The notes under the pieces: generated by a model
The model's database searches: none
What the model was told of the DNA's origin: nothing
Seen by the model: only the letters and a program-made list of their open reading frames with translations
Part shown: positions 9,439 through 61,894 of the stretch, piece by piece
Numbering within the stretch: the stretch's first letter is position 1
Layout of the letters: every line of letters starts with the position of its first letter
IMG/VR virus record: IMGVR_UViG_3300042889_001503
Location: 208,438-272,437 of that record
Direction: 5' to 3' (one strand)
From: a virus
DNA length: 64,000 nt
Program-made: the position numbers and the translations under genes

Positions 9439-9448
9439 AATTTATATG

Positions 9449-9456
9449 ATATTTAT
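9449..9456 (+). promoter_or_regulatory. Late-promoter-like motif GATATTTAT
   Basis: Ends 4 nt before the ATG at 9461. It probably drives the seven-gene leader array 9461-11916. Confidence 0.6.
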
Positions 9457-9460
9457 TGTT

Positions 9461-9655
9461 ATGAAGTTAATTATAACAGAGTCACAATATGAAACCATCA
9501 ACGAGATGATTAAACTTAACATTAAGGTAGGTGATACCATTATGGGTGGAAAATTTAAGAACAAGAAGGTTGTTGTGAAGACAATCGACAAGAATGAAAA
9601 GGGGGATATTACAATAAACGGTAAACCATTGTTACGTTTTAGAATCATAGAATAA
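9461..9655 (+). CDS. Leader-peptide protein (IITES), first of array
   Basis: 64 aa. The start is set at 9461 by the GATATTTAT motif and the MKLIITESQY leader; the in-frame ATG at 9446 lies inside the motif. The body is a compact basic beta domain (VGDTIMGGKFKNKKVVVKTI). The stop overlaps the next ATG by 1 nt. Confidence 0.75.
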   Translation: MKLIITESQYETINEMIKLNIKVGDTIMGGKFKNKKVVVKTIDKNEKGDITINGKPLLRFRIIE

Positions 9656-9985: not shown

Positions 9986-10579
9986 ATGAAAGAGTTAATT
10001 AAAAAAATATTACGAGAGGAAGTTCAGAAGAGATTTACAAAATCTAATCAAAGTTTTGAGCGTCTTATTATTAAACAGATGGAGTCTTTAATATCCGAAA
10101 CAAATAGAGTTGTTGTCCCACCTGAAGAGAATTATGGAAACTTTAATGAGGAGTGGTGTAAAGGTGATAAAATTATTATGCAGGCAAGATACTTTTTCAG
10201 TAGTGAAGATAGTGATGAAGAAAAGTTTTTTGGTGGTGATTTATATGTTAATAAAGAAGAAATTGATTTTTTATCTCAAATGTTACAGGTTAGAAAACCC
10301 TATTTACTTAATGTAATTACCGAATGGTATGATGAGAAATACGCTACCAAGTTTGGTCAAGAAACCGGACACCCGGAATTGGAGATTGATGAGACTCACG
10401 AAACGGATAGTGACCATAAATGTTATAAAATGATTAATACTTCAAACCTAAGTAGAGAATATATGATTGATTATATTGATACAAATACATTATATAAACT
10501 TAGTGAATTGGAAAAACTACCTGATGATGAGTTAGAAAGAAAATACCGAAGTGTTTATAATATCCAATTAAATAAGTAA
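9986..10579 (+). CDS. Leader-peptide protein (ILREE type)
   Basis: 197 aa. Leader MKELIKKILREEVQKRF (site after L-R-E), a second helical stretch, then an acidic body with VITEWYDEKYATKFG, which resembles the WF module but is internal. The stop overlaps the next ATG by 1 nt. Confidence 0.75.
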   Translation: MKELIKKILREEVQKRFTKSNQSFERLIIKQMESLISETNRVVVPPEENYGNFNEEWCKGDKIIMQARYFFSSEDSDEEKFFGGDLYVNKEEIDFLSQMLQVRKPYLLNVITEWYDEKYATKFGQETGHPELEIDETHETDSDHKCYKMINTSNLSREYMIDYIDTNTLYKLSELEKLPDDELERKYRSVYNIQLNK

Positions 10580-11260: not shown

Positions 11261-11590
11261 ATGAGAATAGTAATCACAGAAAATAAAAGAGATATGTTAT
11301 TTAGAGAGGAGTTTAAAAACCTGTTTAATAAATTAACTCCAACAAGAGCCGGACATACCGAGAACATTATCTACATATACTTTGATGAGGTATATGATGA
11401 TAATGCGGTTACAGGGTTGGTATATAGACCAAGTAATCGTCAATTAATTATATATCCGGATTACTTTATTAGTTTAAGAATGTTTGTTTCATCTGAAGAA
11501 GAACTAAAGGAAATGATAGGAATATGTTATGAGGAATTAACTGATAAAATAGTTAGATATTCTTGGATTTGGATAGATAATGAGTTATGA
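11261..11590 (+). CDS. Leader-peptide protein (VITEN)
   Basis: 109 aa. Leader MRIVITENKRDMLF; a central beta domain with VYRPSNRQLIIYP; C-terminal SSEEELKEMIGICYEEL. Overlaps the next gene by 4 nt (ATGA). Confidence 0.75.
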   Translation: MRIVITENKRDMLFREEFKNLFNKLTPTRAGHTENIIYIYFDEVYDDNAVTGLVYRPSNRQLIIYPDYFISLRMFVSSEEELKEMIGICYEELTDKIVRYSWIWIDNEL

Positions 11591-14133: not shown

Positions 14134-14904
14134 ATGAACTTACACGAAGATATACAAAGAATAAGACAAATGATGATTTCTGAGGAGATGGTCCAATCAG
14201 ATGCGTGGAAATCAATCAAAAAAACATTAGACATTCTTAAAAAGAAAAAGAAAGTTTTAATCTTAAGTTGTTCCAATAGATATAATTGGGATGAAAAAAA
14301 CCTTGACATACCAAAATCAAAGATGATTGCAATGTATCTTAACGATGAGTTAAAAGACTCAGTGTTAATTGATGTTTCCGAACTTAACATTGTTCCTTGT
14401 GAGGGGAATGTATCAAGAAAAGACGGGAACAGTTGTGGATTACTTAAATCTATGCTCAAAGATAAGAAAAAGAATCCATCCGGAGACCATAGATGTTGGG
14501 CAAGTTATAACAATCCAAAGGATGAGTTATGGAAGATATCCAAAGAGTTATTTGAGTCAGATGCTGTTGTATTCTTTAGTTCAATTAGATGGGGACAAAC
14601 CAATATGTTCTATCAGAATTTAATTGAGCGATTGACTTGGATTGAGAACAGACACGCAACATTGGGGGAATCAAATCTTGTTAAAGATATTGAGACAGGA
14701 TTCATTTGTGTTGGACAGAATTGGAATGGTGAGAACGTAACTGAAACACAGAAAGAAGTTCATAAGTTTTATGGATTCAAACCAAACAATGACTTGTATT
14801 GGAATTGGCAATATACCAAAGATGTGAATGATGAAACTCAAAAATCATATAAGGATTCACACAAGAAGTTTATTAAAGATACAAAATTACCTGAAGATAA
14901 ATAA
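14134..14904 (+). CDS. Flavodoxin-fold NAD(P)H-dependent oxidoreductase with leader
   Basis: 256 aa. Residues 1-18 (MNLHEDIQRIRQMMISEE) are the long leader class with the site after I-S-E. The rest is a flavodoxin-like FMN reductase: VLILSCSNR (first strand and phosphate loop), VLIDVSELNI, then SDAVVFFSSIRWGQTNMFYQ, the conserved strand-loop that contacts FMN in this family, and a C-terminal FICVGQNWNG. The family reduces FMN or quinones with NAD(P)H. An enzyme with this leader would, on the packaging hypothesis, be carried in the virion. The stop overlaps the next ATG by 1 nt. Confidence 0.82.
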   Translation: MNLHEDIQRIRQMMISEEMVQSDAWKSIKKTLDILKKKKKVLILSCSNRYNWDEKNLDIPKSKMIAMYLNDELKDSVLIDVSELNIVPCEGNVSRKDGNSCGLLKSMLKDKKKNPSGDHRCWASYNNPKDELWKISKELFESDAVVFFSSIRWGQTNMFYQNLIERLTWIENRHATLGESNLVKDIETGFICVGQNWNGENVTETQKEVHKFYGFKPNNDLYWNWQYTKDVNDETQKSYKDSHKKFIKDTKLPEDK

Positions 14905-15629
14905 TGAACTTACGACATGACATAAAAAGAATATTAAGGGAAGAAACAAATAAAGATTTAACTTCGGTAATAGAAATGTTATTAGAGGGATTTGTTAATG
15001 ACCACAAAGACATTCTTTGTAAGGTTGAGGTTAAGCACCCGGACAAGAGAACCAAACTACCACATTCGGATAATGTTTATGAGAATTACAGAGCAACATT
15101 TTATTTAATTGCTCATAAAGGTGGGTATTCAACAACAAGAGCTCAATTGATGGATAACGTAATGAATGAGGTGTGGGATTTGGTATATAATTATACCGGA
15201 CAGAAATTAGATATGTTTACCAAACACGTAAAGAGTTGTGACGATATTATAAAAGAGAGTAAAGATAATAGTATTTCTGATATGATAAAAACTTTGGGGG
15301 TTTCTGATGCCATTAAGTATTTTGGGAATTACTACACAATTGAGCCATACTTAAAAGTGGTTGATAAAGTTAATTTTATTAAAGAAAAAGTTAGAGAATT
15401 AAGTGATGATGGTAGTGGTGTTGGTTTACACGAGATAAATGAAGAGCCACTTCATTATAGTGATGAAGATGGGGAGGAACATCAAATAGAATGGTTAGGA
15501 CTAACAAGTGTAGACATTAGTGTATATGAAGATGAGTATAGTGGTCATTTAAGGGACTATTATTCTAAGTATGAAAGTTTACCTGTGCAAATAATTGAGG
15601 AATTGGTTGAGATATTATTAAACCACTAA
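14904..15629 (+). CDS. Leader-peptide protein with GxxxAIKYFG module
   Basis: 241 aa. Leader MNLRHDIKRILREE; an N-terminal domain (residues 20-115) absent from its neighbours; then a C-terminal module starting SDMIKTLGVSDAIKYFG and ending DYYSKYESLPVQIIEELV. The next two genes carry the same module, so this is the longest member of a tandem paralog set. Confidence 0.78.
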   Translation: MNLRHDIKRILREETNKDLTSVIEMLLEGFVNDHKDILCKVEVKHPDKRTKLPHSDNVYENYRATFYLIAHKGGYSTTRAQLMDNVMNEVWDLVYNYTGQKLDMFTKHVKSCDDIIKESKDNSISDMIKTLGVSDAIKYFGNYYTIEPYLKVVDKVNFIKEKVRELSDDGSGVGLHEINEEPLHYSDEDGEEHQIEWLGLTSVDISVYEDEYSGHLRDYYSKYESLPVQIIEELVEILLNH

Positions 15630-17439: not shown

Positions 17440-17793
17440 TTAATCAATATGATATTTAGTGATATGATATCTACCACATTTATTACAATGCCAAGTAGTA
17501 TATACAACCTTTTCAACGTGTAGATTATATCTTTCCATAAACCAAGGGATAAAGATATCGTTTATATCATAACCACTTGTAACACCAAACATAGATACTA
17601 ATTGATTTGATATCTCCTCAGATAATTCAACTATTCCATTATCACGATTAAATGTGAAAGACATATCGTCACCACTATCTTTATAGATAATAAATCTATG
17701 ACCAACGGAATACTTCCTTAAGTTACCATAGTCCATATCCAACCATTTGGTAACGACATTTTTTCTCTTGTTCTCTGTGATTATTACTTTCAT
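17440..17793 (-). CDS. Leader-WF family protein with CxxC tail
   Basis: 117 aa. Leader MKVIITENKRKNVVTKWL; central beta domain; module FIPWFMERYNLHVEKVV; then an extra tail WHCNKCGRYHITKYHID that could bind metal. Overlaps the upstream gene by 4 nt. Confidence 0.78.
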   Translation of the reverse strand: MKVIITENKRKNVVTKWLDMDYGNLRKYSVGHRFIIYKDSGDDMSFTFNRDNGIVELSEEISNQLVSMFGVTSGYDINDIFIPWFMERYNLHVEKVVYTTWHCNKCGRYHITKYHID

Positions 17794-18095
17794 ATTTGTT
17801 CTACTCTATGACATTTCTTGGCTCTAAACCCAAACTTTTTATTACCCCAATCCAATAACAACTCACTAACTTCATCGTTATCAAATCCGAACATACTACG
17901 GATAAAATCCCATATTTCATTTAAAACATAGAATCCTTTTACTCTACTGTTGTAAAGCATTTTGAACATTCCCTTATCGGATATGAATACTCCTTCGTGT
18001 GAGGGGAATATCATCTTTTTTAAGTCGGGATATTCCTCTTCTAACCAATTAATGGCGAGACGGATTCGTTTGTTCTCTGTGATTATAATCTTCAT
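17790..18095 (-). CDS. Leader-WF family protein
   Basis: 101 aa. Leader MKIIITENKRIRLAINWL; body DLKKMIFPSHEGVFISDKG; C-terminal IRSMFGFDNDEVSELLLDW followed by GFRAKKC, with Gly in place of the Phe of WF. First gene of a two-gene minus operon. Confidence 0.78.
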   Translation of the reverse strand: MKIIITENKRIRLAINWLEEEYPDLKKMIFPSHEGVFISDKGMFKMLYNSRVKGFYVLNEIWDFIRSMFGFDNDEVSELLLDWGNKKFGFRAKKCHRVEQI

Positions 18096-25961: not shown

Positions 25962-26327
25962 ATGAGAATTATTATAACAGAAAGTAAATTTAAAAGTATG
26001 GTTACCAAAATGGTTGGGTATGATTTATCCCACCGTATTGAGATGATTACAAGTTGGGAGAATTTAACCGGTTCGGAAAAACATAATGTATTTGGTGATA
26101 ATAAATCTATTTTTGTTCAGTATCAAAACCATTATGGTCCGATGTATATATTTTCAAATTTTAAAGGACATAATTATTTGGCTCAAAATCAAAAAGGTAA
26201 ACTATGGTTTATTGTTGATACAAGTACTGGATACGAAATAGATTACTATGATTTTTTACAAATGCTTAATCTTGATATGACGGGTATTAGTTTAAGAAAA
26301 ATAATCGATGAATTTGCTGAAGAATGA
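25962..26327 (+). CDS. Leader-peptide protein (IITES)
   Basis: 121 aa. The start at 25962 is set by the motif and leader MRIIITESKFKSM; the upstream extension overlaps the previous gene. Beta-rich middle with HYGPMYIFSNFKGHNYL, C-terminal helix LRKIIDEFAEE. Overlaps the next gene by 4 nt. Confidence 0.76.
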   Translation: MRIIITESKFKSMVTKMVGYDLSHRIEMITSWENLTGSEKHNVFGDNKSIFVQYQNHYGPMYIFSNFKGHNYLAQNQKGKLWFIVDTSTGYEIDYYDFLQMLNLDMTGISLRKIIDEFAEE

Positions 26328-26662
26328 AAATAATAATTACAGAAAGTAAAGTTGGGCAAGTAAAAAATTTAGTACAAGAAATTATTGATGATGAGTTAAA
26401 TAACTTACGTCAAGAGGCTGATGAAGAGTGGGGTTTGGGTGAAATGGATGAGATAAATGAGGTTGGTTCTGTTGAAAAGATTGTTGTTGATGAAATAAAA
26501 ACAACTGATGGTATTAGTGTTAATGTCAATCTTTATTTAAACACAGATAGAGAAGATTTTGAAATAATTTTACCAATGATTGAATATACTATTGAGCAAT
26601 GGATTCCTAATGCTAAAATTCATATAAACAAAATATATCTAAATGAAAATAATAATTACTGA
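26324..26662 (+). CDS. Leader-peptide protein (IITES), acidic
   Basis: 112 aa. Leader MKIIITESKVGQVKNLVQEI, acidic linker (EADEEWGLGEMDEINEV), beta domain, end NENNNY. Its last 20 nt are also the leader codons of the next gene in another frame. Confidence 0.76.
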   Translation: MKIIITESKVGQVKNLVQEIIDDELNNLRQEADEEWGLGEMDEINEVGSVEKIVVDEIKTTDGISVNVNLYLNTDREDFEIILPMIEYTIEQWIPNAKIHINKIYLNENNNY

Positions 26663-52377: not shown

Positions 52378-53070
52378 ATGAGAGTTACATTTATAAGTGA
52401 TACACACAACAAACACAAACAAGTCACACAGGATTTACCTGGTGGAGATTTACTAGTGCATAGTGGAGATTTAACATCTATGGGTTACGAACACGAAATC
52501 AGAGAGTTCTGTAAGTGGTTTAATAACATAGAAGGTTATACTCACAAGGTATTCATCGCCGGAAACCACGATTGGGGTTTTCAAGATAACGTTGACAAGG
52601 TAAAAGAGATATTAGATTTCTACACCGGAATCACATATCTTCAAGATAGTGCATTGGTAATCAAAGTTGGGGATGAAAGAGAAGTAAAAATCTATGGTAG
52701 CCCTTGGCAACCTTGGTTTCACGATTGGGCATTCAACTTACAAAAAAATGGTATGACGTTGGCAGGTAAATGGGAAGGAATCCCTGATGATACTGACATC
52801 TTACTTACTCACGGACCAGCGTTCGGAATCTTAGACACTGTTGACGGTAGAAGATACGATAATTTAGGTTGTGAGTTATTATCTGAGAGATTAGAAAGAT
52901 TAAACGTTAAACTTCATAATGTTGGTCATATCCACACCGGATATGGTTACGTTAAAAAAGGGGACACACATCACTTTAACTCTGCGGTATTAGATGAGAG
53001 ATACATCTACACTCAAAAACCAATGACTGTTGATTGGAATCCGGATACAAACGAAGTAGAGTTTGTTTAA
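52378..53070 (+). CDS. Metallophosphoesterase
   Basis: 230 aa. All metal-binding blocks are present: FISDTHNKH, LVHSGDLTS, FIAGNHDWGF, LLTHGPAFG and NVGHIHTGYG. YGSPWQPWFHDWAFN is typical of the MPPED/239AB-like branch. Such enzymes hydrolyse cyclic nucleotides or other phosphodiesters; the substrate is unknown. A phage copy could degrade host signalling nucleotides. Confidence 0.88.
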   Translation: MRVTFISDTHNKHKQVTQDLPGGDLLVHSGDLTSMGYEHEIREFCKWFNNIEGYTHKVFIAGNHDWGFQDNVDKVKEILDFYTGITYLQDSALVIKVGDEREVKIYGSPWQPWFHDWAFNLQKNGMTLAGKWEGIPDDTDILLTHGPAFGILDTVDGRRYDNLGCELLSERLERLNVKLHNVGHIHTGYGYVKKGDTHHFNSAVLDERYIYTQKPMTVDWNPDTNEVEFV

Positions 53071-53480: not shown

Positions 53481-54308
53481 ATGAAACAAACAAAAACTTA
53501 CCACGAATTGGTACAAAAAATGAGAACGTTCTTTGTAAACAAGAACTTTATTGAGGTTCCATCTCAATCACGATTATCTATTTTAGCTGCTTGCGAAAAT
53601 CCACATTCAGTTAAAACATTTGAATATGGAGGTGAAATTTGGCCGTTACCACAGACAGGACAAATGTGGTTGGAATATGAATTATTGAAAAATCCTGAAT
53701 GGGACGGTGTATTCTGTATATCAACATCATACAGAGAAGAGAAAAATCCAATCCCGGGTCGTCACGAATTAATCTTCCCAATGTTTGAATTTGAATCAAA
53801 AGGAACGATGGAAGATTTGGTTGCATTAGAACTTGAATTGTTACAATTCTTAGGATTTGATTCACCGGTTGAGGTAAACTATGAAGATGTGTGTAAAGAA
53901 TACGGTGGTGTATCCATTTTAGAGGACGAACACGAATCAAGAATGTGGAAAGAAAAAAGTGAGGTTATTTCATTACAAAACTTCCCAATTAGAACAAACC
54001 CATTTTGGAATATGAAACATAATTCAGATAACATCTTCAATAAGGTTGACGTAATCCTTTTTGGGCAAGAAACAATTGGTTCAGCTGAGAGAAGTTGTGA
54101 TGTTGTTAAGATGAGAGAGATGTTCTATACCATAGAAAATGGTGGTTACTCTCAGAAACTATTTGAATTATTTGGGAAAGATAGAGTTGAGAAAGAATTG
54201 GAAGAATTCTTATCTTTGGACTTCTTCCCACGTTTTGGTGCGGGGATTGGTCTAACAAGATTGGCGAGAGCTTACAATATAAATAAAGAATTAGTTGAGA
54301 CATATTAA
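53481..54308 (+). CDS. AsnRS/AspRS-like class II catalytic core without anticodon domain
   Basis: 275 aa. STSYREEKNPIPGRHELIFP and MFEFE form class II motif 2 (R-x-E ... F-x-E), FGQETIGSAERSCD is the subclass IIb loop, and FFPRFGAGIGLTRLARAY is motif 3 (GxGxxR). The OB-fold anticodon domain (about 100 aa) is missing. The size and layout resemble archaeal asparagine synthetases derived from AsnRS/AspRS. It may make Asn or an aminoacyl-adenylate rather than charge tRNA. Confidence 0.82.
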   Translation: MKQTKTYHELVQKMRTFFVNKNFIEVPSQSRLSILAACENPHSVKTFEYGGEIWPLPQTGQMWLEYELLKNPEWDGVFCISTSYREEKNPIPGRHELIFPMFEFESKGTMEDLVALELELLQFLGFDSPVEVNYEDVCKEYGGVSILEDEHESRMWKEKSEVISLQNFPIRTNPFWNMKHNSDNIFNKVDVILFGQETIGSAERSCDVVKMREMFYTIENGGYSQKLFELFGKDRVEKELEEFLSLDFFPRFGAGIGLTRLARAYNINKELVETY

Positions 54309-54328: not shown

Positions 54329-54526
54329 ATGAAGAAATTTTTAACATTTTTAATAATATGGATTGGTAGTAATTTGGCAGTACCTTTTTGGGTTGTTGGT
54401 CACGTTCATTTAAGTTTGAATATCTATAAAGATATTTATGAAATCTTGGCTTCTTGTGGTATGAACATATTAGTTTTGTTGGCTTTTTGGTTTGAATGGA
54501 AAAAAGAGAAAAAAAAAGAAAATTAA
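54329..54526 (+). CDS. Small two-span membrane protein
   Basis: 65 aa. Two helices (LTFLIIWIGSNLAVPFWVVG; ILASCGMNILVLLAFWF) and a Lys/Glu tail (EWKKEKKKEN). Size and topology would also suit a small holin. Confidence 0.65.
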   Translation: MKKFLTFLIIWIGSNLAVPFWVVGHVHLSLNIYKDIYEILASCGMNILVLLAFWFEWKKEKKKEN

Positions 54527-54959: not shown

Positions 54960-55163
54960 CATCCGGTGATAATTCTACACCAAAAACTAATAACTCCACA
55001 ACACCAAATTATAATAACTCCACAAGGAATCAGGTTGGGTATACCCATAATTCACAACTTCAGGGGTATAATAATCAAATTTCACCAATTATACCTAATT
55101 TTCACGGTTTACCAATATAACACAAAAAAAAATAAAAGAAATAGTTAATACAATTATTTGTTG

Positions 55164-55171
55164 ATATTTAT
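55164..55171 (+). promoter_or_regulatory. Late-promoter-like motif GATATTTAT
   Basis: Thirty nt before the ATG at 55202; longer leader than usual. Confidence 0.45.
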
Positions 55172-55201: not shown

Positions 55202-56323
55202 ATGAAAAACCTATCAAAAGAAGAATTATTAAGCCGTCTTGAGGCAATTAACAGAAGTAATGCTATTATTTATTTCGATTTATCGGGAATTATATTAGGT
55301 GTTAATGACATTTTTTTGGTGGCAATGGGGTATGGAATCGGTAATCACGATGAACTTATTGGTAAACACCATAGTACTTTTGTATGTGAAGAATATGCAA
55401 AGTCACCTGAATATGAAAAATTTTGGGACATATTAAGAAGTGGTAAGTACTACCAGGGAGAATTTGAAAGGAGAAGAAAAGATAGAAGTCTTATAAATCT
55501 TCAAGCGACTTATAATCCTATTTTTGATGATAGTGGTAAGATTACTAAAATAATGAAAATCGCTACTGACATTACGTCAATTGTTGATAGCAAGAAACAA
55601 ATAGACGCAATTAACCGAAGTACTGCTCTTATTAATTTTAATACAGATGGATTTATATTAGATGTAAATTCTATATTTTTAGAAACTATGGGGTATAAAC
55701 CCAACGAAAAAAATAATTTAATAGGGAAACATCACAGTGTTTTTGTAAGTTACGAGTATTCAAAGTCCGATGAGTATATTAAGTTTTGGGAAAATCTAAG
55801 AAAGGGTAAGTTTTTTGATGGAATATTTGAAAGAAGAAAAGTAGATGGTTCTATTGTTTATTTACAGGCATCTTATAATCCTGTGGTTGACAGTAAAGGA
55901 AATATTACTGAAGTAGTTAAAATTGCGACAGATATTACTGAGTCAGTAAATAATAAGAAAAAAATAAATGAACTTACGACTAATTTGACAATTGAGTTGG
56001 AAAACTCTCAAAAACTTAAACACTCAATTGAATTAGAAAAAAATGCCGCTCTGAATGATTTAGATGTAGTATTGAAAAAGAGTCAAAATGAGTTAATAAA
56101 AATAATTGTTAAATGTGCATTGGCTGTTATAGTTGGTGTTGGTATTGTGACAACTATGTTATATTGGGTGGCTATTGTGACAAATCAAGATACACAAATT
56201 ATTGGTTCAACTTGGTCAAATATGTTTAGTGTATTATTAACTAACGCATTTTCAATCGTTGGTACAATTATGGGAATTAAATACGCCACGCAGGATGGTA
56301 GTAATAAACCCTCAAGTAATTAA
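55202..56323 (+). CDS. Double-PAS membrane protein
   Basis: 373 aa. Two tandem PAS domains (about residues 14-130 and 136-250) with near-parallel motifs: AIIYFDLSGIILGVNDIFL / ALINFNTDGFILDVNSIFL, LIGKHHSTFVCEEYAKSPEY / LIGKHHSVFVSYEYSKSDEY, and KIMKIATDIT / EVVKIATDIT. This is the PAS type found in chemoreceptors and Aer. Then a coiled coil (about 255-300) and two membrane helices (IIVKCALAVIVGVGIVTTML; FSVLLTNAFSIVGTIMGI). No kinase or chemotaxis signalling domain follows. It may titrate or tune host sensing. Confidence 0.85.
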   Translation: MKNLSKEELLSRLEAINRSNAIIYFDLSGIILGVNDIFLVAMGYGIGNHDELIGKHHSTFVCEEYAKSPEYEKFWDILRSGKYYQGEFERRRKDRSLINLQATYNPIFDDSGKITKIMKIATDITSIVDSKKQIDAINRSTALINFNTDGFILDVNSIFLETMGYKPNEKNNLIGKHHSVFVSYEYSKSDEYIKFWENLRKGKFFDGIFERRKVDGSIVYLQASYNPVVDSKGNITEVVKIATDITESVNNKKKINELTTNLTIELENSQKLKHSIELEKNAALNDLDVVLKKSQNELIKIIVKCALAVIVGVGIVTTMLYWVAIVTNQDTQIIGSTWSNMFSVLLTNAFSIVGTIMGIKYATQDGSNKPSSN

Positions 56324-56359
56324 AATTTACCACAAATAACTAAAATTGAATTGTCTTTG

Positions 56360-56367
56360 ATATTTAT
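56360..56367 (+). promoter_or_regulatory. Late-promoter-like motif GATATTTAT
   Basis: Thirty-one nt before the ATG at 56399. Confidence 0.5.
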
Positions 56368-56398: not shown

Positions 56399-57223
56399 AT
56401 GTTATTAAAAGTAGGGTCGAAAGGTGACGACGTAAAAAAACTACAAACAAAATTAGGGACAACCTCTGATGGTAATTTTGGTCCCGGTACCGAGAAATTG
56501 GTTAAAGAATGGCAAACCAAAAACGGATTAACTGCTGACGGAATAGTTGGTGAAGGAACTTGGAAAAAAATGTTTCCGGGTGAGATAATCAAAGAAGATG
56601 TTGTGATTCCAACAGGTGGTCCATTTAAATTAGAAAAATTAAAAGGACATATCCCTGAATCAGTAATTGCTCAGATTCCGGACACAGCAAAAAAATTCAA
56701 CATTACTAATCCATTAAGATTAGCTCACTTCTTAGCTCAATGTGGTCACGAATCAGGTGGATTCAAATCAGTGTCGGAAAACTTAAATTATTCAGCAAAA
56801 GGTTTAAAAGACACATTTAAAAAATATTTTATAAGTGAAGCTGCGGCAACACCTTACGCAAAAAACCCTGAAAAAATCGCATCAAAAGTATATGGTGGAA
56901 GAATGGGTAATGGTGATGAATCTACAAAGGAAGGTTATAAATTCAGAGGTAGAGGATATATCCAATTAACTGGTAAAGACAACTATAAAAATTTCACTAA
57001 ATTCATCGGAGAAGATTGTATTGGAAATCCTGATTTAGTTGCAACAAAATATCCGTTAGCGTCTGCGGCATTCTTCTTTGACTCAAATAAATTATGGTCT
57101 ATTTGTGATAAAGGCTCGGATGATGCTACGGTAACGTCGGTTACTAAAAGAGTAAATGGTGGAACCATTGGTTTACCTGACAGAATTAAACACTTTAAAG
57201 AATATTATAACTTATTAAAATAA
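56399..57223 (+). CDS. Endolysin: peptidoglycan-binding domain + GH19
   Basis: 274 aa. Residues 1-62 are a PG_binding_1 domain (LKVGSKGDDVKKLQTKLGT, DGNFGPGTEKLVKEWQ, GLTADGIVGEGTW). Residues 85-274 match GH19 lysozyme/chitinase: HFLAQCGHESGGFKSVSENL with catalytic Glu, KFRGRGYIQLTGKDNYKNF, and VTKRVNGGTIGLPDRIKHF. Degrades cell-wall glycan at lysis. No signal peptide, so it needs a holin. Confidence 0.92.
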   Translation: MLLKVGSKGDDVKKLQTKLGTTSDGNFGPGTEKLVKEWQTKNGLTADGIVGEGTWKKMFPGEIIKEDVVIPTGGPFKLEKLKGHIPESVIAQIPDTAKKFNITNPLRLAHFLAQCGHESGGFKSVSENLNYSAKGLKDTFKKYFISEAAATPYAKNPEKIASKVYGGRMGNGDESTKEGYKFRGRGYIQLTGKDNYKNFTKFIGEDCIGNPDLVATKYPLASAAFFFDSNKLWSICDKGSDDATVTSVTKRVNGGTIGLPDRIKHFKEYYNLLK

Positions 57224-57266: not shown

Positions 57267-58145
57267 ATGAATAAGAAATTAATTAAAGAAGACATTGCAA
57301 ATATGAAATACCTTTTTGGTTATAAACCGGGAAGAGTTATTTCTGAACAAGATATTGATTACACTACTGACGATTATTTAGATACTAACGACACTGAATT
57401 AGAAGAAAGTAACCCATTCAAAATTGGTGGGGGATTTGAAGATTACAATTTCCCTGATAAATTAAAAGATAGATTAAGTGACATTTATGATTTATTAGAT
57501 GAAGTAATGGAAGACCCGGATAACGACCCATCTGATTATTCAGATATGTATGATTTTGCGGGTGTAATAATTAGTCAAGTCTTAAATAAATTACGTGATG
57601 AATTTGGTGAGGATTTTGAAGAATACGAAGATGATGTTGATGATTATCTTAGAAATAATGAAGATGAAACAATATTTGATTTTTATAATAGTCGTTCAGG
57701 TTTTGACGATGAAGATGATGAAGATGAATTTGATGAGGATATGAATGAACAATATGACAACCAAAATGGTATGAATTGGGTTCAAAATACTACAATGGAT
57801 AGACAAAGTCCAATAGATGATGACAATGATGTTGAAGGGGGTGTGATATCAATCCTTAAAAAACATCGTTTACTTGATAACGTAGTAGAACCGGATGATG
57901 CAAGAATATTACTTAGAAATCAATCATCTGAAGTTGTTCAAAAGATTTTATCACTTTTACCTTCATTTACTGAATTAGGGTTTTTAGCGTTTATAAATTG
58001 TGAATCAGCAGATTTTTCTGATGTGGACATTTGTAGTTTACCTAACTTAGCTTTTATAAACTTAAATGGTACTGAAAATAATTTTGAAGAACAAGATTAT
58101 GAATGTGCTAACACAGAAGATTCACCTTTTTATTTCCTTGAATAG
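57267..58145 (+). CDS. Acidic leader-peptide protein (MKYLFGY...VISEQ type)
   Basis: 292 aa. N-terminal NKKLIKEDIANMKYLFGYKP then GRVISEQ: two candidate sites (I-K-E, I-S-E), of which the VISE|Q one fits a style I recall from phage structural proteins. Then a long Asp/Glu-rich region (DEDDEDEFDEDMNEQYDNQN) and a C-terminal region with leucine-repeat character (LPSFTELGFLAFINCESADF, LPNLAFINLNGTENNF). Possibly an abundant internal head protein. Confidence 0.75.
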   Translation: MNKKLIKEDIANMKYLFGYKPGRVISEQDIDYTTDDYLDTNDTELEESNPFKIGGGFEDYNFPDKLKDRLSDIYDLLDEVMEDPDNDPSDYSDMYDFAGVIISQVLNKLRDEFGEDFEEYEDDVDDYLRNNEDETIFDFYNSRSGFDDEDDEDEFDEDMNEQYDNQNGMNWVQNTTMDRQSPIDDDNDVEGGVISILKKHRLLDNVVEPDDARILLRNQSSEVVQKILSLLPSFTELGFLAFINCESADFSDVDICSLPNLAFINLNGTENNFEEQDYECANTEDSPFYFLE

Positions 58146-58927: not shown

Positions 58928-59167
58928 ATGAAAATTAGAATAACTGAATCGCAAATAAAAAAAATCGAAGAAGGTATCTTTTGGGATGAGGAGAACTTAA
59001 ATGCGTTAAAAGGTATTACGGGAACCAAACAACAAAAAGAAGTCTTTAATGTTGAGGTAATAGAACCATTTTCAATAACATTGACGGATTCAATTCAATA
59101 TCATAGATTAGTTTATATATTAAGAACAAATGGTGTTAAATTTAAAGCTAAGGTTGATAAAATATGA
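58928..59167 (+). CDS. Leader-peptide protein (IRITES)
   Basis: 79 aa. Leader MKIRITESQIKKIEEGIFWD; then a small beta domain (FNVEVIEPFSITLTDSIQYH). Overlaps the next gene by 4 nt. Confidence 0.74.
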   Translation: MKIRITESQIKKIEEGIFWDEENLNALKGITGTKQQKEVFNVEVIEPFSITLTDSIQYHRLVYILRTNGVKFKAKVDKI

Positions 59168-59622
59168 AACTAATAATTACAGAAAGTCAGTATAGAAAAA
59201 TAATCAAAGAAGATACTCAATTAGAATACACTAGTGAATTTTTGGATGGTGTTACGGTTGTTGTGGTATTTGAGGATGACCCATTATACGAACAAGTTAA
59301 AGGATACTTTGAGGAGTATGGGTTTGGGTTTATGGTTCCCGGTAAGAATTTAATCATTATTGATGGTGAAATATTAGTGGGACAACCGGACGCTAAAAGT
59401 GTTTTAAAATTTATTGAAGCTCACGAGGTTACCCACGTATTATTAAGTCACGATGGTCCAAGAGATGAGAAAGATGAGTTGGAGGCTGACTTGGGAGCTT
59501 ACCTATTATTACAAGATAAAGGATATTACGAATCAATCCGAACATTACTAGACCACTTCCAAGAAAGACACGGAGTTGAGTTTGATGAGAGTATGTTGGA
59601 CGATATAAAAAATAGAATGTAA
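59164..59622 (+). CDS. Zinc metallopeptidase (HEVTH) with leader
   Basis: 152 aa. Leader MKLIITESQYRKIIKEDTQ (sites after I-T-E and I-K-E). FIEAHEVTHVLLSHDG is HExxH; KDELEADLGAYLLLQDKGYY supplies the E-x-x-A third-ligand helix as in IrrE/ImmA (M78-like) peptidases. With 37108 it is one of two leader-bearing zincins. The substrate is unknown. Confidence 0.78.
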   Translation: MKLIITESQYRKIIKEDTQLEYTSEFLDGVTVVVVFEDDPLYEQVKGYFEEYGFGFMVPGKNLIIIDGEILVGQPDAKSVLKFIEAHEVTHVLLSHDGPRDEKDELEADLGAYLLLQDKGYYESIRTLLDHFQERHGVEFDESMLDDIKNRM

Positions 59623-60025: not shown

Positions 60026-61894
60026 ATGGGAAAAATTATTGGAATTGACTTAGGAACAACTAACTCGTGTGTCTCTGTAATGGAGGGTAACGAACCGGTT
60101 GTAATAGCAAATTCAGAAGGTAAAAGAACAACACCTTCAATCATCGGTTTCATCAACGAAGGAGAAAGAAAAGTTGGTGACCCGGCAAAAAGACAGGCGG
60201 TAACCAACCCGACTAAAACAATATCATCAATTAAACGATTTATGGGTTCTACCTATGACGAGAGTAAAAACGAAATTGGGAAAGTTCCTTACTCTGTTGT
60301 AAACGAAGGTTCTCAACCAAGAGTTCAGATTGACGATAGAAAATACTCACCACAAGAATTGTCGGCAATCATCTTACAAAAGATGAAACAAACTGCCGAA
60401 GATTATTTAGGTGAATCAGTAACTGATGCGGTAATCACCGTCCCAGCTTACTTTAACGATGCCCAACGTCAGGCTACAAAAGAGGCGGGTGAAATTGCCG
60501 GATTAAATGTTCGTCGTATTATCAACGAACCAACCGCGGCGGCTCTTGCGTATGGACTTGACAAAAAAGGTGATAGTAAAATTGTTGTGTTTGACTGTGG
60601 AGGGGGAACTCACGACGTGTCTATTCTTGACTTAGGTGGTGGTGTATTTGAGGTATTATCTACCGATGGAGACACACATTTAGGAGGGGACGACTTTGAC
60701 AGAGTCATTATTGATTTCTTGGTTGAAGAATTTAAGAACGATAATGGTGGTTTAGACATCTCAAAAGATGCTATGGCATTACAAAGGTTAAGAGAAGGTG
60801 CTGAGAAAGCGAAGGTTGAATTATCTTCATCACCTCAGACAGAAATCAACTTACCTTATTTAAGTGCTGATGCTACCGGACCAAAACACTTGGTAAAAAC
60901 ATTAACAAGAGCGAAGTTTGAACAACTTGCGGCTGAGTTAATCAAAAGAACCATTGACCCTTGTAAAACGGCATTGAAAAACGCGAAACTTAAGGTTTCC
61001 GATATTGATGAGATTATCCTTGTTGGTGGAACAACAAGAATCCCGGCAATACAAGATGCGGTTAAGAAGTTCTTTGGTAAAGAACCATCAAAAGGTGTTA
61101 ATCCGGATGAGGTAGTTGCGTTAGGTGCGGCTATTCAAGGAGGTGTATTGGCTGGTGATGTGAAAGACGTGTTGTTATTAGACGTAACACCACTTTCATT
61201 AGGTATTGAAACAATGGGTGGTATTTTAACACGACTTATTGAGGCAAATACCACAATCCCAACCAAAAAGTCACAAGTGTTCTCAACAGCTGTTGATAAT
61301 CAACCTTCTGTAGAGATTCACGTCTTACAAGGAGAGAGACCAATGGCAAAAGACAACAGAACGATGGGTAGATTCCATTTAGATGGTTTACCACCATCAA
61401 TGAGAGGTGTTCCTCAAATTGAGGTAATCTTTGATATTGACGCGAATGGTATCATCAATGTATCTGCAGTTGACAAATCAACAAACAAAACACAATCAAT
61501 TAGAATTGAGGGTTCAACGGGATTATCTCAAGAGGATATTGAAAGAATGAAGGCTGAAGCTGAAGAAAATGCTGAAGCGGACAAAAAACTTAAAGAGGAT
61601 GTGGACACATTAAACTCCGCTGACAACCTGATATTCCAAACAGGTAAATCTTTAACGGATTTAGAGGATAAGATTTCTGAAGAACAAAAAACAGAAATAA
61701 CAACTCTTCTTGATACCTTGAAAGAATCTCATTCTAATAAAGATGTGGAAAATGTTAAAACGATTATGGAAGAACTTACCCAAAAGTTTCAAACCATCAC
61801 ACAGGAATTATACAATAGTGTAAATGAGAGTGAGACTCCGGAATCAGATATTAACGCTTCTGACGTAGAGTTTGAAGAAGTTAAACCTGAGTAA
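60026..61894 (+). CDS. dnaK: Hsp70 chaperone DnaK
   Basis: 622 aa, close to normal full length. ATPase domain: [59 protein letters not shown] (usually FDLGGGTFDVS; Leu and Phe replaced by Cys and His) and [20 protein letters not shown]. Interdomain linker [19 protein letters not shown], substrate domain, helical lid, and C-terminal EFEEVKPE, the usual DnaK tail. ATP-driven folding chaperone. No DnaJ or GrpE here, so host partners are presumably used. Spelling is close to bacterial DnaK, suggesting acquisition from a host. Confidence 0.96.

Follow-up and report, generated by a model that had tools for sequence, protein, structure and literature searches.

Based on domain searches, structure prediction and comparisons with relatives in other viral contigs, we propose that interchangeable sensory inputs control one membrane effector in a group of phages, most likely for the timing of lysis, a reading that we hold with about even confidence. 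The gene from which this proposal starts lies in a window of 64,000 nucleotides (positions 208438-272437 of a 272,437-base virus record), is present as a single copy in that record and encodes, from an ATG start, a protein with two PAS domains, a coiled coil and two transmembrane (TM) helices (Table 1). The proposal builds on features directly visible in the compared sequences, namely this architecture, the constraint on TM2, the linkage to lytic enzymes, a hairpin common to this protein and a phage two-component operon, and the mutual exclusion and same-locus exchange of the two arrangements. In its fuller form, phages would carry complete, interchangeable one-component (PAS-hairpin) and two-component (kinase-regulator-hairpin) circuits, dedicated to a new membrane effector domain that sets the moment of host lysis; here our confidence falls slightly short of even.

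Table 1. Features of the sensor locus, in window positions.
Feature	Position	Strand	Basis or remark
Metallophosphoesterase, left syntenic anchor	52378..53070	+	Pfam; common to two-component-type loci L216/L217/L226/L241
65-aa protein, two hydrophobic stretches and basic tail, possible separate holin	54329..54526	+	Sequence reading; no convincing Pfam/PHROG match
GATATTTAT motif upstream of sensor gene	55163..55171	+	Not conserved in relatives
PAS-PAS-coiled coil-2TM sensor/effector gene (373 aa)	55202..56323	+	ORF, domain searches, AlphaFold2 model, 269 relatives
PAS domain 1, about residues 19-131	55256..55594	+	Pfam PAS_3 best stretch 35-120; TIGR00229 15-131; fold search MmoS/NifL/DosP
PAS domain 2, about residues 141-250, duplicate of PAS 1	55622..55951	+	Pfam PAS_9 147-247; PAS tree
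Coiled-coil signalling helix, about residues 246-298	55937..56095	+	AlphaFold2 model; runs unbroken into TM1
TM1, about residues 299-325	56096..56176	+	Hydropathy, AlphaFold2 model
TM2, about residues 338-360, near-invariant hairpin core, one polar/small face	56213..56281	+	pN/pS, amphipathicity, common to HK-RR-linked proteins
GATATTTAT motif upstream of endolysin gene	56359..56367	+	
Endolysin, peptidoglycan-binding domain and GH19	56399..57223	+	Pfam PG_binding_1, Glyco_hydro_19; phrog_181 endolysin E 6.6e-67
DnaK-like chaperone, right syntenic anchor	60026..61894	+	74-77% identity; right of HK-RR-hairpin operon in L216/L217/L226/L241

Architecture of the sensor protein and constraint on its hairpin

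Pfam detects two PAS stretches that clear the cut-off by a wide margin (PAS_3, E 3e-23; PAS_9, E 2.5e-22) and NCBIfam two sensory_box stretches (E 3.6e-26), while the best fold match is the redox sensor domain of MmoS (Foldseek E 8.9e-16), sequence profiles and fold both identifying a PAS sensor protein. The AlphaFold2 model (mean pLDDT 75.9, pTM 0.37) displays two PAS folds, a helix at residues 246-327 in which the coil runs into TM1, and a second helix at 332-364 that holds TM2, with membrane-like stretches placed by hydropathy at about 296-328 and 341-359. The order of two PAS domains, coiled coil and two C-terminal TM helices described in the sequence-only reading is hence confirmed. In agreement with the same reading, neither Pfam nor NCBIfam revealed a kinase, methyl-accepting or GGDEF domain; Pfam returned no non-PAS domain above cut-off, HisKA/HATPase and receiver domains included, and no related kinase was found in the 272-kb record. 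The further claim that the protein has no output domain does not hold, as the TM hairpin is its most constrained part and recurs in the protein encoded last in a phage two-component operon; the hairpin looks like the output of the sensor protein.

The gene is not a chance ORF, since a scan of IMG/VR recovered 269 relatives in viral contigs, the best 80 being 79-100% identical across practically their whole length. Shorter relatives also occur (248-251 aa), with a single PAS domain and the same coil and hairpin, and the C-terminal hairpin alone retrieved 551 viral contig stretches. TM2 residues 341-362 are identical across 81 sequences, with a slight bias towards conserved sequences because the scan pattern MGIKYATQ overlaps the end, not most, of the stretch. 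The pN/pS ratio amounts to 0.007 for TM2 (341-362), 0.14-0.15 for the PAS domains and 0.21-0.23 for the coil and TM1. Synonymous sites of TM2 are well diverged (pS 0.60), so the identity is selected rather than recent. The polar/small face of the helix is formed by N340, S343, T347, S351, G354, T355 and G358 (hydrophobic moment p=0.015).

No significant Pfam or PHROG match links the hairpin to known holin families, and the matches of the hairpin alone are weak and of uncharacterised function, such as a marginal C-terminal relationship to phrog_1544 (E 0.001-0.004). A likewise uncharacterised protein of an uncultured Caudovirales phage (UniProt A0A6J5PRT3, 218 aa) matches the hairpin model with 54% identity over 105 columns. 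The hairpin was found neither in 50,697 annotated phage records nor in 396 Bacteroidota genomes, a set that holds no positive control. Homology to the small 2TM and 3TM proteins encoded nearby seemed likely by eye and was rejected upon profile comparison (1% and 4% probability).

In the PAS tree, PAS1, PAS2 and the PAS domain of the single-PAS relatives cluster apart from bacterial and phage-kinase PAS domains with moderate support, which indicates that the pair arose through duplication inside the phage family, in line with the earlier observation that the two domains duplicate each other. As to a capture of the pair from phage kinase PAS the tree does not decide, the pair being 53% identical to phage kinase PAS and 52% to the best bacterial PAS. 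The three best matches in a PDB sequence search are MmoS, NifL and Aer (3ewk, 2gj3 and 8dik), tandem-PAS redox and aerotaxis sensors of the same PAS type by sequence and fold; these pass their signal to a kinase, NifA or a chemoreceptor signalling domain, whereas the phage protein has a C-terminal membrane hairpin. Similarly, bacterial GAF-PAS-PAS hybrid histidine kinases (Winogradskyella, L082) hold PAS domains 42-52% identical to those of the phage, but continue with kinase and receiver domains and contain no hairpin. A 43.8% 'phage' match, MT836939, turned out to be a bacterial chemoreceptor on an unverified contig. An Asn and a Trp of the Aer PAS domain, residues with a role in FAD binding, align in the phage PAS domains, but Arg57, His58 and Asp60 of Aer are not conserved, so that FAD is no more than a possible ligand. 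As both sequence and fold place the pair closest to PAS domains of redox and aerotaxis sensors, sensing of a redox, oxygen or energy signal is plausible.

The two-component counterpart and exchange of inputs

A search with a bacterial PAS sequence led to phage-encoded membrane histidine kinases, located in operons that encode, in this order, the membrane PAS kinase, a single-domain response regulator and a coiled-coil protein (about 190-230 aa) with the same hairpin at its C-terminus. The hairpins of the two types are 56% identical over 86 residues (BLASTP, E 4e-34), and the part of the coil closest to TM1 is also common to both. Scanning with the two-component-type hairpin protein yielded 483 related stretches; at the independent loci, the response regulator adjoins in 44 of 46 and the kinase is present in 41 of 46. 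The kinase comprises GAF, PAS, PAS and HATPase domains in Pfam (HATPase_c E 1.8e-14), with the H box found in 79 kinase frames, the N box in 74, G1 in 73 and G2 by eye. The receiver scores 29.8 with Response_reg, just under the cut-off of 30.2, and its aspartates and Lys are conserved in 77/77. With HATPase boxes on one side and the receiver acidic pocket, phospho-Asp and Lys on the other, the operon qualifies as a two-component system. All regulators are 142-154 aa long without a DNA-binding tail, so that the output must pass to another protein, and we infer that the likely target is the hairpin protein of the adjoining gene.

The kinases at L163-L175 and L178-L257 include the GAF-PAS-PAS-HATPase arrangement and shorter forms, and some phages have two kinases in tandem (L168, L200/L201, L229, L243/L254). 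In several phages the sensor module is adjoined by a protein of 200 aa whose N-terminus is hydrophobic and which may consist of a TM segment and a GAF-like domain, a possible further sensor part, located 1137 bases after the PAS gene start in L076 and antisense downstream of L241/L242/L248.

The two arrangements exclude each other. Each of 51 whole virus records holds exactly one hairpin, 27 of the two-component type and 24 of the PAS type, and never both; a kinase occurs in 25 of 27 two-component records as compared to 0 of 25 PAS-type records including that of the window (Fisher p 7e-13), with the reservation that the searched records may be incomplete. In 20 locus pairs, at least five of them independent by our own reading, the two hairpin types share both their flanking genes and their orientation. 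The window locus is one such shared site, flanked by metallophosphoesterase and FKBP genes to the left and DnaK to the right, and the kinase operon occupies it in L216, L217, L226 or L241, with anchors some kb off, not every anchor present in each of these loci, and other genes differing. The cleanest pair, L130 and L222, maintains 91% DNA identity until 98 bp before the PAS gene, then carries input modules that are unrelated except for one short PAS stretch, and returns to homology inside the hairpin gene (86.6% identity over 6.2 kb), which indicates that only the input side was exchanged. As judged from these alignments, sensor modules are swapped around a fixed output. Upstream of the sensor gene, the window also encodes an asparagine/aspartate-tRNA-synthetase-like protein (53481-54308; phrog_29758, E 1.8e-96), a homologue of which was seen by inspection upstream of the kinase operon in L181.

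Linkage to lysis genes and alternative explanations

The neighbouring gene previously read as a lysis gene is a real endolysin (Table 1), and the association is recurrent. When PAS-type loci were clustered at 95% nucleotide identity and those with adequate flanks counted, 37 of 44 independent loci had a lytic enzyme beside the sensor gene, in nearly all cases within 1 kb and on the same strand, as compared to 1.4% expected; chance is excluded because the more distant bins are almost empty (2 matches in 554 background kb bins). These enzymes belong to unrelated families, i.e. GH19, GH24 (T4-type lysozyme), M15 peptidase, PG-binding/phrog_3000 and, by inspection, amidase-like proteins, and many loci combine a PAS protein of close to 80% identity or higher with an endolysin that has diverged to 35-60%. 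Comparative genomics thus strongly supports the suggested tie of the sensor to lysis. Holin-like and spanin-like genes lie close by in many PAS-type loci, and since most cassettes hold another holin-like protein (7 of 37 being without one of the three searched types), the role of holin need not fall to the hairpin. A two-TM protein of 82-104 aa (alignment A3), for which no family matches well, recurs beside the PAS gene in L009, L022, L045 and many other loci, and is a candidate new holin family.

The late-like motif proposed to group the sensor with the lysis gene was borne out within this genome, where GATATTTAT occurs 13 times versus 3.2 expected and lies 38-39 nt upstream of the sensor and endolysin genes alike, but not across relatives, where it precedes the sensor gene in 5 of 55, not clearly over the 5% chance level. 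Another motif, ATATTTAT, is 6.4-fold enriched within 100 nt upstream of window ORFs, frequently some 12 nt ahead of the start codon, and is a possible late promoter element of this phage. In addition, about 20 of the 123 window ORFs start with related short N-terminal motifs (MKIIITESQ/KR..., ...IKRILREE) on otherwise different proteins (e.g. 9446-9655, 9986-10579, 11261-11590, 14904-15629, 17790-18095, 26324-26662, 57267-58145 and 59164-59622); at residues 41-74 the pattern occurs in 1 of 102 ORFs. The motifs resemble T4 capsid-targeting/prohead-protease propeptides (Leu/Ile-x-Glu), and their carriers are possible internal head proteins.

Counting against a role in lysis, no recognised lytic enzyme lies near 7 of 44 PAS-type loci (L013, L046, L049, L052, L130, L138 and L147) or near 12 of 37 two-component loci, the linkage of the latter (25 of 37 operons) being looser than that of the PAS type. 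In L130 and L222 the module lies between replication genes, encoding UvsX-like and nuclease proteins, in L147 it is near nucleotide metabolism, and in L046 it is found with small membrane/structural-like genes. These loci would suit a signal-gated membrane effector unrelated to lysis, e.g. an ion channel or anchor retuning host membrane energetics or metabolism, for which the lysis-gene site is a late accessory-gene hotspot; strong constraint and exchangeable inputs likewise suit any effector. Lytic enzymes of unrelated families in so large a share of the loci argue against such an effector, which we consider rather unlikely, though to be taken seriously. Bacterial defence systems are known to place two-TM effectors under the control of a sensor, and exactly one copy per phage would agree with a superinfection-exclusion or anti-competitor device: once the sensor registers a second infection or a disturbed membrane, the hairpin would close or depolarise the membrane, as in abortive-infection two-TM effectors. 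For this purpose, cytosolic PAS sensors beside endolysins are an odd choice, and inspection revealed no defence genes nearby, making the device improbable.

The relationship of the PAS domains to those of bacterial hybrid kinases and chemoreceptors could also point to a decoy, i.e. a captured host PAS receptor fragment that sequesters host kinases or chemoreceptors. We find this very hard to credit, as neither replacement at one site by an intact kinase-regulator-hairpin operon nor a TM hairpin as the most constrained part would be expected of a decoy, and the phage PAS domains group apart from the sampled bacterial ones. A block of host receptor arrays, as the sequence-only reading had also considered, finds no support: a chemoreceptor signalling domain is absent from the protein, whose counterpart forms a complete circuit of kinase and response regulator. 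Finally, the sensor may delay rather than trigger lysis, keeping the hairpin bound to a separate holin in poor conditions as an antiholin would. Many cassettes do encode a separate holin-like protein (Phage_holin_4_1, small 2TM or 3TM proteins), and hetero-oligomeric TM regulators are the form in which lysis inhibition is known (PMC11413866, PMC7182436). On the other hand, no single holin type accompanies the sensor, which is odd for a specific partner, and we assign this possibility a small probability; it is a variant of our preferred explanation with opposite sign, and the sequences accommodate both.

Proposed mechanism and relation to known systems

For the signal, the direction of switching, pore or antiholin activity and the timing of lysis, we infer the following. 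The sensor protein would act as a one-piece signal-transduction device, whose N-terminal PAS pair senses the host-cell interior, presumably its redox, oxygen or energy state. A change in the PAS domains would travel along the coiled coil into TM1 and switch the two-helix hairpin effector. In other phages, the membrane PAS kinase would instead phosphorylate the single-domain response regulator, which in turn may act on the hairpin protein via the coiled coil of the latter. Considering the lysis linkage, the hairpin most likely controls lysis: it would either form a signal-gated holin or pore itself or regulate the separate holin encoded in the cassette. Genetic linkage and the polar face of TM2 are compatible with a holin function, and a hairpin that forms the holin or regulates a neighbouring one, and a signal that hastens or delays lysis, would fit the same sequences.

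The timing of phage lysis is commonly attributed to a holin clock, the classic environmental input being lysis inhibition upon superinfection. Lysis inhibition in T4 and ICP1, based on a holin and an RI-type antiholin, represents a phage-encoded environmental input to holin/endolysin lysis as proposed here, but, as far as the accessible parts of the reports describe it, operates without PAS domain, kinase or response regulator, with T4 RI working from the periplasm (PMC7182436, PMC11413866); in the present case, lysis control is a probable role. As in the two-component-type phages, the genome of phiCDHM1 contains a histidine kinase, agrC, but this belongs to host quorum-sensing genes with a proposed horizontal transfer from the host, and the accessible part of the report mentions no phage response regulator or dedicated membrane effector (PMC3901668). 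Lysis inhibition is thus the closest known system in function and phage-borne agrC in parts, neither of which, within these sources, combines a sensor or two-component system with a membrane effector of its own. In a survey of 224 jumbo phages, histidine kinases are mentioned only as never found with its divergent receiver domain (PMC7824862), and the openly accessible literature offered no precedent for a two-component system encoded by a phage or for PAS proteins with a part in phage lysis.

In conclusion, if the proposal is true, lytic phages would read host physiology via dedicated signal transduction, with widespread sensors, full two-component systems and one effector. The exchange of two sensory inputs at one locus with the same output represents a natural experiment, and the hairpin, being small and near-invariant, is directly testable by expression. 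A group of uncultured water-dwelling phages seems to possess a signalling system of its own, which probably decides the time of lysis.
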